From Aeriscardovia sp. (GTDB taxonomy: Bacteria; Actinomycetota; Actinomycetes; Actinomycetales; Bifidobacteriaceae): DNA of 64,000 bases. How positions within the stretch are numbered: position 1 is the stretch's first letter; every line of letters begins with the position of its first letter. Made by a program: the position numbers and the translations under genes. Location: assembly GCA_017632855.1 (NCBI GenBank), contig JAGBQM010000014.1, positions 1 through 64,000 on the forward strand, written 5' to 3'. The notes beneath the pieces are model-generated. The model made no database searches and was not told the DNA's origin. It saw only the letters and a list, made by a program, of their open reading frames with translations. Of this stretch, positions 1-7,126 are shown one piece after another.

Positions 1-365
1 GCTGCCCATTGCGCTTTGGTACGAGGTCTTGGCAGTTTCTTCGGCAGCGGCTGCGGAGGTGGCCTTACTTCCGGCCGTGGCGCTTGCCGACTGAGCGTTG
101 GATAAGGCTTTCTGGGCAGAGGTCATGAGCCCCTGCATGGAAGCAGAATACGCGCCTCTGGCGCCTTGCATGATACTAATGGCATTTCTTGCAGTACTGG
201 TAGCAGATTCGGCGTTGTATAAGGCTTTCTGGGCGGAATCATGGAGGCTGCCCATTGCGCTTTGGTACGAGGTCTTGGCAGTTTCTTCGGCAGCGGCTGC
301 GGAGGTGGCCTTACTTCCGGCCGTGGCGCTTGCCGACTGAGCGTTGGATAAGGCTTTCTGGGCAG
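1..365. repeat. Perfect 119-bp direct repeat, period 246 bp
   Basis: Bases 1-119 are identical to bases 247-365. The spacing of 246 bp equals 82 codons, so the repeat keeps the reading frame of the surface-protein gene. The identity extends to the left edge, so the true repeat may be longer and further copies may follow outside the window. Perfect identity at DNA level means recent duplication or gene conversion, and the array is a likely site for copy-number change. Confidence 0.9.
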
Positions 366-981
366 GCGCAGCAAGAGCATTGAGTGCGTCAGTAAGGGCG
401 GCAGACTGAGCTGACAACGCCTCCTTGTCGGAAGCGGCCTGGGCCTGAGCATCAGCGAGAGCGTTCTTCTGATTTTGAAGTTCCGCCTGGTTCTTGCTTA
501 TGGCGCCTTCGACTATTCCCTGGAGATTTGAGAGAACTTTCTGGAGCGAAGCGCGTATTTCACTCTGGGTTTTTTGGTTTAGATTTTCCCCTCTTATGTC
601 TTTGAGCTGGGAAGCAATTTGAGCCAAAGAGTTACTGGCGTTTGCGGTACCTTTAAGCCAGAGTTGGAGCTTGGATGTAATTGCCTGCAGAGATGCGGTC
701 ACATCCTCCAACTTGACCTGGGTGAGATTGCCTTTCAGGTCTTTAGACAAATCAAGTTGATTTTCAAGGGCGTCCAACACCCCTTCGGCGCTGTTTAGCC
801 TTCTTAAATGGGCCAGCTCAGTACCCAGTTTGCTTCCAACTTGTTTAGCCTGCACAGTGGCGGCATTGGCGGGAGCTACAACTGAAAGCATGGCTGCTAC
901 GCCCGCCGCTCCAGCTATGGCTCCTACGCCTAACTTGTTGCCTTTGCCATTGGCAGCATGAGCAGCATGCTTTTTTGCCAT
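1..981 (-). CDS. Alanine-rich repetitive secreted surface protein, 3' end outside window
   Basis: The visible 327 codons start at an ATG preceded by a good ribosome binding site (GGAAGGAG). Residues 1-42 form a signal peptide: a basic, His/Lys-containing start, a Gly/Ala/Val hydrophobic core and a likely signal peptidase site after PANA. The mature part is rich in Ala, Ser, Gln and Asn and is built from short helical units of the type AQKALSNAQSA, probably coiled coil. It is a clear paralogue of the gene at 2978-6122: the signal region, the LENQLDL-x-GNLTQ block and the repeat units match. The stop codon and any cell-wall anchor lie beyond the left edge. Unlike its paralogue, the junction after the signal peptide has no G tract and the frame is open. 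Function is not known; an exported adhesin or surface-layer role is inferred only from architecture. Confidence 0.8.
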   Translation of the reverse strand, partial: MAKKHAAHAANGKGNKLGVGAIAGAAGVAAMLSVVAPANAATVQAKQVGSKLGTELAHLRRLNSAEGVLDALENQLDLSKDLKGNLTQVKLEDVTASLQAITSKLQLWLKGTANASNSLAQIASQLKDIRGENLNQKTQSEIRASLQKVLSNLQGIVEGAISKNQAELQNQKNALADAQAQAASDKEALSAQSAALTDALNALAAPAQKALSNAQSASATAGSKATSAAAAEETAKTSYQSAMGSLHDSAQKALYNAESATSTARNAISIMQGARGAYSASMQGLMTSAQKALSNAQSASATAGSKATSAAAAEETAKTSYQSAMGS

Positions 982-2381: not shown

Positions 2382-2796
2382 TCAGGAGTTTGAGGCTTCT
2401 TCGCTTTCCTCTTTTCTCACATAGGCCCTAAGGTAGCCAAGGCCTTCTATCTTTACCTTCGCTTCGCCGTCCTCGGTCATTTTCTTGGAGAAGCGGCTGC
2501 GGGCTACCACCATGTCTCCCGGCAGCAGTGTCGAAAAGGTGGAGATGAAAGCTGTATTTTTTATGACGCACCTCAGGAGATCCCTTACGCCTTCCCCCTT
2601 ATCTTCCCCGAAAACCAGGCGGGCGTCAGGGTCGATTTTGCTTTCGACCCAAGGGCCTATGACCAAGGAGTCGCCAAAGGCTGTGTTGCATATGTGGCTC
2701 CTGTCTGAAAGCGCTGTAGAATCCAAGACGCAAGTCATGCCAAGGATGGAATAATCCGTTAGCCTGCCATTTTTGCCTATGCCGAGGGGTTTTTAT
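2382..2796 (-). pseudogene. 5'-truncated duplicate of FAH-family gene
   Basis: The frame from 2738 to 2382 encodes a protein that matches the C-terminal half of the intact FAH-like protein at 6395-7126 almost throughout: TCVLDSTALSDRSH, GPW-E-KIDPD-RL-FG, FSTLLPGDMVVARS and the AYVRKE tail. Homology continues in frame upstream of the first ATG to about 2796 (GIGKNGRLTDYSILG), where an in-frame TAA and AT-rich sequence end it. The N-terminal half of the family domain is therefore missing. It is probably a relic of a tandem duplication that copied an FAH gene together with a surface-protein gene. Confidence 0.75.
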
Positions 2797-2977: not shown

Positions 2978-5900
2978 TTAGTTCTTGCCGCTGCGCCTTT
3001 CGCGATTCTTCTTGATGGCTTCAGTGACCAATCCTAGACCTGCAAGTCCTCCTGCAGCCAAAATAACATCCACTGCATCATCTCCGGTGATTGCAAGATT
3101 TTTAGAAGAAGGCTGAGAGCTACGCTCGGCCGAGGATGGGACCGCTGACGAATAGGAGGCCTTTGAAGTGGAAGGCATCCAAGCAAAGGGCTCGGCAAGA
3201 ATCTTGGAGTCCACTTCCAGTTCTTCTGCTGTGGATTCGAGATTGCTAAGCTGCTTAGTCATCTGCGAGATGCTCTCGCTAAGATCTGCTACAGTGGCCT
3301 TTTCTTTGGCATAGCTTGCATTTGTTGCAGCCCAGCTGTTTGCGTCATTTAAGGCATTTTGCAGGGCTTTGGCGGCTGCATTTCCAGTCTCAAGATCATA
3401 AGTAGCACTAGCAACGCTCTGTTTGCTGTAGCCCGCATCCGTCATAGAAGCGATGGCGTCTTTTGCCTGGGCTAGAGCATTAGATACTAAATCCTGGGCG
3501 GAAGAAAGGTACTTTGCAGCTTCAGAGGGATCCGTAGAACTCATGGCATTAGCGAGGTCAGAGTTTGCGCTCTCAGCATCATTTTCTATCTTCATGGCGG
3601 CATTGTGGACTTGTTGTGCAGCCGTAGATTCGTTTACAGCAGCAGTCCAGTCCTTCAGCGCGCTAAGGGCTCCATCTAGGGAAAGGGCTTCGCCGGTTCC
3701 CAGATCGTAACTTGCGTTCTTGGCATCGGTGTCGGAGTAACCTGCGGATTTCATATCGCCGATGGCCGTATTTGCATCGCTCAAGGCAGCAGTTATCGCA
3801 GTCTGGGCGGAATTGAGAGAGGCCTGGGCATCTGATGGAGTTGATGCGTTTGCAGCTTCTTGAAGCGACTGATAGGCAGACTGGGCCGAGCCCTCTACCG
3901 CGTTTGCCTCTTTAGCCACATTCTGGGCTGAAGCGGCCAATTTTGCAGCCGTCTGTGCTGCACTCTTCGCATTTTCAAACGCCTTCTGAGCAGGTGCAGT
4001 TATTTGGGCCATTGCACTTTTGAAGGTAGTTTTGGCTGATGAAGCCATTGAACTCGCTTCGGATGCCGCTGAAGAGGCTTCGGATGCCGCTGAAGAGGCA
4101 TTTGGAAGAGCCTTTTTTGCAGCTTCGTCAAGGGCAGTCAACGCATTGGCGCATTTTGTATTTGCTGCAGCCTCCGCTTGCTGTGCAGAAGAGTAAGTGG
4201 AGTTATCGGAAGCTATTTGGCTTGTGGCAGACTGAAGGCCTTGGGCATCCTGTAGGGCTGTATCAATCGCAGTCTGCACATCCTTTGCAATATTTACGTC
4301 ATATTGAGCGCCTTCGATGAAGGATGTGCCCAACTTTGCCGACTGCATTTCTTCTATGGCCTGTTCGGCAGACTGAATAGCGCTATCAGTGTTTGTCTTA
4401 GCAGAACTTAGAGAAATAATTGCCTCATTCAAGGGCGTAGAAGAGGTAAGGTCCTTCACATCGTTGTAGGCTTGGTTGGCCTTTTCAAGTATTTGTGAAG
4501 CTAACCCCTTGACCGCTTTTACTGTCGCATCAGAAGGCATGGCGCTATAGACGGTATCTATGCTGTTATTCGCTGATTGTGCCTCGCTCACAGCACGTTG
4601 CCCTTTGCTCAAGATGTCCTCGAGGGCAGATGGGTAGGTATTTTGAAGCTGTTCTTTTGTGGACGTAGCATTCTCTAAGGCCGCTCTTGCATTAGCTTCC
4701 TGGGTCTTTGCAGTCTGAAGTTCATTAGCTGCAGCGAGGGCGTTGGAAAGAGCCGTTTTAACTGCAGTGGCGGTGTCGAGATCGTACTTAGCATTGTTAA
4801 TACTCTTTTGAGAGTAGCCCGCATCCGTCATGGAAGAGATGGCGTCATTAGCATTGGAAACGGCGCTGTCGACAAGATTTTGCATGCTCGTCAGGGCAGA
4901 AATCAGTGAAGAAGTGCTTGTAGCATTCTTGGCTTCACTTAGGTACGTATCTGCATTTGTCGCATCTTGCAACGCATCCTGAGCGTAGGAGGAAACGGTT
5001 TGTGCGGCTGTAGCGGTATTTTCGGCCTTCTGCCAAGCCAAGGCCTTTTGAAGTGCATTGGCAACGGCGCTTTTGGCGGCTTTGGCGGTTGTAAGGTCGT
5101 ATTGGGCGTTGTGCGCACCGGCCTCCGAAAGTCCGGAAGTTTGCATGTTGCTGACTGCTTTTTGCGCCGCCTGAATGGCATTCGTTATATCGCTCTGCGC
5201 GCTTTGCAGGGCCTCTACAGCTGCATCTGGGCTGCTAGCCTGTTCCGCGTTGCTCAGATTGGTGTTGGCGTGTTGGGCATAACTTAAAACGTTTTGCGCA
5301 TCGGTATTTGTCTCGGTATTGATATTGGAAATATCTCCGGCAGTGCTCGCTGCAGATTCCGCATTTGAAAGAGCCTTTTTGGCAGATGTGATAACCCCTT
5401 GCATGGCAGTGGTGTAGGCATCCTTAGTGCTAGAAGCAGCATTTTCTGCCTTCTGGAGCGCTTCACGGGTAGTGCTCGCTGCAGATTCCGCATTTGAAAG
5501 AGCCTTTTTGGCGGGATTTTGAAGCGCGCTTACTGCTTCCTTGTAAGCGGCGGCTTGGGACCACAACGCACTTGCATCAGAAGCCATTTGCTTCTGCGCG
5601 TTTTTCAGGGCTTCCTGGTTATCTTTACTTTCTTCTGTCAACTTGTTAATGGTATTTCCCACCATATTCTGGAGAGAAGAAGTAATTTTTTGAAGGCAAG
5701 CGCGCATTTCACTTTGGCTATTTTGGTTAAGCCTCATTCCCTGCTCGTCCCTCAATGCCTTGAGCTGAGAAGCAATTTGATTGAGAGGGAGCAAGGAAGC
5801 CCCATGGCACATGGACTGGAGTTCGGAAGTTATGCCCTGAAGGGAAGCTGTAACTGCTTCCAGCTTGGCTTGGGTGAGATTTCCCCTAGTCAAATTCGAC

Positions 5901-6122
5901 AGGTCAAGTTGATTTTCAAGGAAGTTTAGAGTCTTCTTTGCCCCATTCAGCCGATCGTAGCTGGCGAGCCTAGAAGACGCCCCCCCCCCCGATGTTTTCT
6001 TCCTTTACGGTAGCTGCGTTGGCTGGTGCTACAACGGAGAACATAGCGGCTATGCCTGCGGCTCCCGCTATGATCCCGGCACCAAGCTTAGCGCCCTTGT
6101 GGTTTGCATATTTTTCAGTCAT
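2978..6122 (-). CDS. Phase-variable LAXTG-anchored Ala-rich repeat surface protein (OFF as sequenced)
   Basis: The ATG at 6122 opens a signal peptide (core AGIIAGAAGIAAMFSVVAP, cleavage after PANA) closely matching the paralogue at the left edge. At codon 46 the frame enters a run of 11 G (5980-5990) and stops at TAG (5972-5970), giving about 50 residues. Removing one G joins the signal peptide to a continuous frame to 2978, restoring a protein of 1047 residues that matches the paralogue through the junction (LENQLDL, GNLTQ). The mature region is Ala/Ser/Asn-rich, helical, and holds five copies of a module around AGYS-(x)n-YDL-TA. The C-terminus has LAITG, a hydrophobic segment and a basic tail: a sortase signal of the actinobacterial class E (LAXTG) type. 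An internal TTG at 5893 would lack the signal. Role unknown; phase-variable adhesin or decoy antigen is inferred. A homopolymer sequencing error cannot be excluded. Confidence 0.8.
5342..5512. repeat. Perfect 42-bp direct repeat inside the surface gene, period 129 bp
   Basis: Bases 5342-5383 and 5471-5512 are identical and 129 bp apart (43 codons, in frame). They encode the KKALSNAESAAST unit. With the diverged module copies elsewhere in the gene, this shows growth by in-frame duplication. Confidence 0.85.
5980..5990 (-). repeat. Homopolymer G11 tract, putative phase-variation switch
   Basis: Eleven C on the plus strand (G on the coding strand) sit just after the signal-peptide region. Ten, seven or thirteen G would place the upstream ATG in frame with the 971-codon downstream frame; eleven does not. 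A tract of this length is expected to slip during replication, as in contingency loci. It is the longest single-base run I noticed in the window. Confidence 0.75.
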
Positions 6123-6163: not shown

Positions 6164-6193
6164 ATTATAAATCGGAATTGACAAGGATGTGAA
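6164..6193 (-). promoter_or_regulatory. Putative promoter of the phase-variable gene
   Basis: On the minus strand TTCACA (-35) and TATAAT (-10) are separated by 18 bases, with the -10 about 42 bases upstream of the ATG at 6122. The leader carries a purine-rich stretch (AAAAAGGG) before the start. The flanking 200 bases are markedly AT-rich. Confidence 0.45.
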
Positions 6194-6394: not shown

Positions 6395-7126
6395 TTAGGA
6401 GAGGGGCAAAGAAGTTTGATCTTCTCCTTCCTTGCGTACATAAGCCTTGATATATCCTAAGTTTTCGATCTTTGCCCTCACTTCGTCAGGCAGCTCAAAA
6501 ATCTGTTTATTTTGGCTTCTTGCCACCACCATGTCTCCAGGAAGCAGTGTAGAAAAAGAGGAAATAAAGGAAATATTTTTGAGGGCACACTTTAGAAGTT
6601 CGCGTATATCTTCCGGCCTTTCTTGCCCGAAGATAAGGCGTGTGTCAGGATCTATCTTGGTTTCTATCCAAGGTCCTATGGCTAGAGAGTCGTCGAAAGC
6701 CGTATTGCACACATGGCTTCTATCCGAAAGCGCTGTAGAATCCAAAACACAGGTTATGCCTAGAATATGGTTCTCCACATCCGAAACTGGGCAGTTTCTC
6801 GTGGAAGTGGCGATAATTATCCCAATACCGGGCCTAACTTCTATCCCCCGGCTCCAATCTGGAATGTCAAGGACGTCGTCAGGTCCGACTGCGCAGGTGG
6901 CGGGTTTCAAGTAAAAGTCCATAAACCCATCGCAACAGAAAATCTTCAGAGGAAAATTGGGTGCCAGAAGTCGCACGTCCGATAGATCAAATCTTTGTCC
7001 CGAGAGGGCTGCATCCCCTGCGAAGGGATTTCCGGAGAGGACGGCTACTATTTTCTTCCCCTTGTCCTCCTGGACAAATCCGTACTCTGGCAGATCTTCA
7101 TCTTTGGTGAACCTAGCTACCCTCAT
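6395..7126 (-). CDS. Fumarylacetoacetate hydrolase-family protein, degenerate metal site
   Basis: 243 residues, beginning MRVARF like actinobacterial FAH-domain proteins. The family fold is recognisable: a -KP-----GP-D--- segment near residue 75, a -LGITCVLD- strand near 125, GPW- near 155 and LLPGDMVVA near 205. The usual acidic pair that binds the divalent metal (E-x-E before the VVIG strand) appears here as E-V-R, and the catalytic lysine region (R-A-K-x-F-D in relatives) reads C-N-T-A-F-D. Hydrolase or decarboxylase activity is therefore doubtful. The start overlaps the yggS stop by four bases (ATGA). In other actinobacteria a FAH gene often sits beside gltX, which fits the gluQ neighbour here. 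A truncated copy lies at 2382-2796. Confidence 0.7.
   Translation of the reverse strand: MRVARFTKDEDLPEYGFVQEDKGKKIVAVLSGNPFAGDAALSGQRFDLSDVRLLAPNFPLKIFCCDGFMDFYLKPATCAVGPDDVLDIPDWSRGIEVRPGIGIIIATSTRNCPVSDVENHILGITCVLDSTALSDRSHVCNTAFDDSLAIGPWIETKIDPDTRLIFGQERPEDIRELLKCALKNISFISSFSTLLPGDMVVARSQNKQIFELPDEVRAKIENLGYIKAYVRKEGEDQTSLPLS

Follow-up and report, generated by a model that had tools for sequence, protein, structure and literature searches.

How does a gene whose export signal and surface-protein frame meet at a run of 11 G in different registers come to keep about a thousand codons open behind the break, and is the run a lesion or a switch? The gene, named here B, lies on the minus strand of the window, the 64,000-nucleotide stretch of contig C1 analysed here, from a 767-kb Aeriscardovia sp. 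genome (41 contigs, 94.5% complete). A direct reading of the sequence reproduces the coordinates of the original prediction exactly: the 11 consecutive G, a length taken from one assembly, occupy 5990–5980, and the signal-peptide frame runs for 50 codons from its ATG (6122–6120), ending ...ATVKEENI GGGG VF before the TAG at 5972–5970. The Bifidobacteriaceae-like placement proposed at that stage is consistent with the genus mates of the genome, which are Aeriscardovia sp. metagenome-assembled genomes (MAGs).

Directly behind the tract, the long frame stays open for 999 codons up to a stop at 2978 (971 codons, ORF 2978–5893, when counted from a TTG), and the remaining two frames across the same region hold 48 and 56 stops. 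The only frame break of this gene of about 1,000 codons coincides with the G11 tract (Table 1). The long frame ends in SSKNLAITGDDAVDVILAAGGLAGLGLVTEAIKKNRERRSGKN and, as had been predicted, its sorting signal combines an LAITG motif with a hydrophobic segment and a basic tail (LAITG-DDAVDVILAAGGLAGLGLVTEAIKKNRERR); LAATG, LAVTG and LASTG occupy this place in homologues. At the other end, the export signal reads MTEKYANHKGAKLGAGIIAGAAGIAAMFSVVAPANAATVKEENI, and the 44-residue signal segment shares 71–74% identity with the signal peptides of the paralogue in the same genome and of two genus mates, G003 and G004. A possible ribosome-binding site, AAAAAGGG, precedes the ATG.

Table 1. Features at the B locus; positions are those of the window.
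Feature	Position	Strand	Evidence and remarks
Paralogue A, N-terminal part	1..957	-	Frame open up to contig edge; without G tract
X', truncated second copy of X, between B and A	2382..2738	-	Sequence comparison with X of genus mates
Downstream frame of B, 999 codons and stop	2978..5979	-	Conserved N-terminal domain, α-helical Ala/Ser-rich stalk, LAITG end
Signal-peptide frame of B (putative OFF product), 50 codons	5970..6122	-	Basic N-terminus, hydrophobic segment, ANA-A cleavage-like site
G11 tract, putative slippage switch	5980..5990	-	Longest G/C run of the 767-kb genome
Promoter-like TTCACA-18-TATAAT	6164..6193	-	11/12 consensus matches, promoter scan; about 42 bases 5' of ATG
X, FAA-hydrolase-family gene upstream of B	6395..7126	-	Pfam PF01557 and PF10370; synteny conserved

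Taken together, the signal peptide, the sorting signal and the presence of sortases in the genome predict that B is a sortase-anchored (LAXTG) surface protein. Two such enzymes, of class E (NF033747) and class C (NF033745), score above their cut-offs, both encoded on contigs other than that of B. A Pfam/NCBIfam profile search of B returned no family above cut-off, and AlphaFold models the N-terminal 190 residues from the TTG at 5893 as all helix (pLDDT 85). The neighbouring genes are FAA-hydrolase-family, YggS-like and GluQ-like. A pilus operon was also considered for this locus and rejected because neither pilin domains nor an adjoining sortase are present.

The mere presence of a long G run carries little of the argument. 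Pattern searches of the genome return 11 G/C tracts of at least 8, among which G11 is the longest and a G9 the next, and in the window runs of 6 occur 39 times, runs of 7 twice, and those of 8 and 11 once each. Dinucleotide shuffling makes a 9-G run unsurprising, and a run of at least 11 arises in 15 of 60, 0 of 60 and 5 of 60 Markov simulations of 64 kb of order 1, 3 and 5, respectively. The real genome is in fact poorer in long runs than dinucleotide or first-order models predict, and a simple poly-G excess was consequently abandoned as an argument. Tract density provides none either, since other genera of the family often hold more 9-G matches per genome than this one. The meaningful point is instead that the tract coincides with the only frame break of B. 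At least 8 of the 9 8-mer tracts of the genome lie in frame within their genes, and its two tracts of at least 9 both fall exactly on frame breaks, one in B and the other in an MmeI-type restriction–modification (R-M) gene.

The frame behind the tract has been kept intact by selection, as its 999 open codons and a pN/pS below 1 attest. Comparison of B with A gives a nonsynonymous fraction of 0.33 and a synonymous fraction of 0.72, that is, a pN/pS of 0.46 with pS near saturation, and the chance of the long frame remaining free of stops would fall to about 0.005 after just 0.05 neutral substitutions per site. No second lesion is found within the 999 codons. In contrast to the single tract break in B, the syntenic single-copy surface gene of the sister genome G005 (L094:4348–5672, G005:C14) is a decayed pseudogene, with several frameshifts scattered along a shortened gene. 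For the past, the open frame and the pN/pS value thus lend strong support to the original assertion of selection for an in-frame form, but ongoing switching does not follow from it.

In the four mates examined, GluQ-like and YggS-like genes are followed by X and then by a single surface gene, the order YggS-like–X–surface gene being kept in G002 to G005; the window instead reads X–B–X' (truncated)–A. X resembles its counterpart in G002 (84%), whereas X' shares 75% identity with X of G004 against 64–68% with X of the other mates. X' and A both resemble G004 (75–77%), and A together with X' may therefore have been acquired through recombination from a G004-like lineage. Contig C40 starts with an open frame that probably encodes the C-terminus of A, with its LAATG motif. 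The similarity of B to A (RLNGAKKTLNFLENQLDLS versus RLNSAEGVLDALENQLDLS) and to the genus mates restarts some 8 codons past the tract, and the G run is missing at the aligned position in A and in three genus mates, which makes the tract lineage-specific. The predicted match between the restored junction and the paralogue at the left edge is accordingly real from these codons onwards, but A has nothing that corresponds to the tract itself. B also evolves faster than A (pN/pS of 0.46 for B versus A and of 0.17 for A versus G004) and has a GC3 of 0.48, compared with 0.55 in A and 0.65–0.69 in neighbouring genes; relaxed constraint or a recent arrival could account for both properties. Searches for further copies returned no DNA similar to the locus in phage records, neither the B flank with its tract nor a second strain in viral contigs, and genus mates only, with no second strain, in a scan of genome contigs.

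These observations give some substance to a rival reading that we nonetheless consider improbable, namely a recent fixed inactivation, in which expansion of the G run knocked out a copy of the gene made redundant by the tandem A, too recently for decay to have set in. The open frame of A, the restriction of G11 to one lineage and the faster evolution of B would all fit such a loss, as would the G005 pseudogene, which indicates that loss of this surface gene is tolerated in the genus. However, the absence of any further lesion in the 999 codons weighs against it, and the loss would have to have struck the longest G run of the genome by chance. Moreover, R-M genes of the genus show tracts placed on frame breaks in open and broken forms alike.

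This genus-wide pattern emerged from inspection of all G/C tracts of at least 9 in six genus mates, whose genomes span 0.6–0.9 Mb. In the genome under study (G000), the MmeI-type R-M gene, otherwise intact, carries a G9 on its frame break (L126, C5:948–956) ahead of a 927-codon downstream frame, and its G001 orthologue (88%) reads GAGGGAGGGG at the tract site, with no such run and an open frame. In four species, the tract of an Eco57I-like methylase (PF07669) falls on one shared codon: the G001 gene (L111, C43) is open at G8 and encodes 659 residues (...NIDLKGGVCISLWDR...), and the genes of G006 (L110, C8) and G002 (L113, C9) are broken at G9 and that of G005 (L112, C12) at G10. A second Eco57I-type gene of G006 is broken at G10. 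Similarly, a DNA methylase (PF01555) whose layout is type III Mod-like is open at G9 in G004 and G005 and broken at G10 in G003. In four species, a run of C9 or C10 marks the frame break of a gene whose N-terminal domain is of the type I restriction kind (HSDR_N, PF04313). Three R-M families thus each share a tract site across three to four species, and two of them occur in both open and broken lengths.

By comparison, the G9 tracts of housekeeping genes are in frame in all four cases, which comprise NrdJ (class II ribonucleotide reductase), an ECF component, TypA/BipA and a glycosyltransferase. Tracts of at least 9 lie on a frame break in 11 of 13 R-M and surface genes but in none of the 4 housekeeping genes (Fisher p 0.006; p 0.06 when limited to 9-mers), a contrast that pools related loci and was devised after the data were seen and that is for these reasons support rather than proof. 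It counts against one very unlikely reading, in which the tract length is an assembly or sequencing error, the true tract being in frame and B simply ON. For the Aeriscardovia sp. MAGs recovered from the gut of yak and goat, Illumina NovaSeq reads were assembled with MEGAHIT/IDBA-UD (PMC8199421), the sister genomes are of this NovaSeq/MEGAHIT type, and the assembled length of a G tract may depart from the true majority length (PMC9187656). Plain assembly error should ignore gene function, however, and the breaks track it: R-M and surface tracts are mostly broken, housekeeping G9 tracts never, and at least 8 of the 9 G8 tracts of the genome itself lie in frame.

Long homopolymers can also provoke transcriptional slippage. 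Slippage of RNA polymerase or of the ribosome, which would yield full-length B constitutively at a low level whatever the genomic length and, needing no mutation, would likewise keep the long frame under selection, is the least likely explanation, given that shared R-M sites differ in length (8, 9 or 10) as expected of mutating DNA tracts and that in Bifidobacterium breve frame-fixed strains are visibly piliated and shifts in genomic length have been measured (PMC9187656).

The anatomy of the locus, its intact long frame, the sortases of the genome and the genus-wide placement of tracts on frame breaks therefore make phase variation the best reading, and B is probably a phase-variable (contingency) locus operating through replication slippage at G11. 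B combines a homopolymer of at least 8 within the gene with an intact downstream frame and with two frames that meet at the tract in different registers, from which the dependence of the full-length frame on tract length is deduced. In the proposed mechanism, DNA polymerase slippage would gain or lose G at the tract. An in-frame length would join the signal peptide to the long frame, giving a protein of about 1,050 residues that would leave the cell by the Sec pathway and be attached to the cell wall by a sortase, the LAXTG motif making the class E enzyme the most likely candidate. Out-of-frame lengths, including the assembled G11, would leave the surface protein OFF because the 50-residue stub alone would be made. 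The promoter and start, lying upstream of the tract, would be unaffected by changes in its length. Slippage is presumably frequent and reversible, so that both forms of B would coexist; the protein may act as an adhesin or stalk, and turning it on and off may help the population to cope with host, phage or competitor.

Phase variation of an LAXTG protein, the core of the original prediction, is hence the best-supported interpretation, although the wording on past selection needs the restriction to the past given above and the claim of rarity has to be revised. The view that such switches are seldom described in such bacteria is outdated because B. breve pilus genes and Gardnerella tracts have already been published, and the poly-G switch layout of B is already known within the family. 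In B. breve UCC2003, sortase-dependent pilus genes consist of a signal-peptide ORF, a tract of G10–G12 and an LPXTG ORF, with demonstrated ON/OFF slippage; the pilus genes of B. longum, B. dentium, B. bifidum and B. pseudocatenulatum carry G tracts as well, and the authors mention additional intragenic and promoter-spacer tracts (PMC9187656). Like bbr_0113 and bbr_1889 of that member of the Bifidobacteriaceae, B has its tract between a signal-peptide ORF and a sortase-motif ORF, a promoter and start upstream, and an out-of-frame length in the assembled genome. Unlike B, the B. breve loci are pilin operons with their own sortase, in which mixtures of lengths have been measured, whereas B is a single non-pilin, helical Ala/Ser-rich stalk with an LAXTG motif beside an FAA-hydrolase-family gene. 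In Gardnerella, likewise of the Bifidobacteriaceae, homopolymer tracts of at least 8 are associated with LPXTG, GA-module and methyltransferase genes, with a length change shown for one (PMC11287997). The tie to surface and methyltransferase genes is shared, but the Gardnerella protein families differ, most of the tracts lie upstream of genes, and the species are cultured ones of the human urogenital tract. The contingency loci of Neisseria, Campylobacter and Helicobacter similarly switch the frames of methylase and surface genes by poly-G/C slippage, but they belong to unrelated phyla and genes, and their set was mapped by strains and reads (PMC4209511, PMC8355987).

Several further tracts of the genus mates lie outside coding frames. 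G/C tracts of 9, 9 and 11 are located 32–71 bases 5' of long secreted proteins (L047, L053 and L060; G002:C5, G001:C75) that have similar signal peptides, with no Pfam match for the two tested. In G005, a G11 precedes an AAA (McrB-like) gene, and two G9 tracts (L079 and L080; G005:C11:11094 and 21299) separate TTGAC(A) from a -10-like TAGGATAAA, behind which comes a ribosome-binding site. The L080 tract and ribosome-binding site stand in front of a small gene for a double-glycine-type peptide, and these G9 tracts could form a promoter-spacer switch of a bacteriocin-like peptide.

What is new here is a probable poly-G phasome spanning the genus, in genomes of 0.6–0.9 Mb, as the literature searched yielded no description of such a tract set in ultra-small ruminant-gut genomes. 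On an even balance of probabilities, these ruminant-gut Bifidobacteriaceae, with genomes that have shrunk to this size, would have kept, and would still be renewing, a poly-G contingency set that shuffles surface and DNA-modification states jointly even in so nearly minimal a genome. On the same even odds, the set would take in at least three R-M systems (Eco57I-like, HSDR_N and Mod-like, joined in some species by an MmeI-type system), together with secreted or anchored proteins and perhaps promoters of peptide genes. Tract positions are common to several species, and the idea is thus testable with existing ruminant-gut reads. It also carries a warning for the annotation of such MAGs, in which genes called lost may be genes switched off. 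Genome reduction is usually thought to strip luxuries; if this reading is true, the upkeep of mutable surface and R-M switches in a 0.77-Mb gut bacterium and its sisters would point to strong and fluctuating pressure from phages, competitors or the host.
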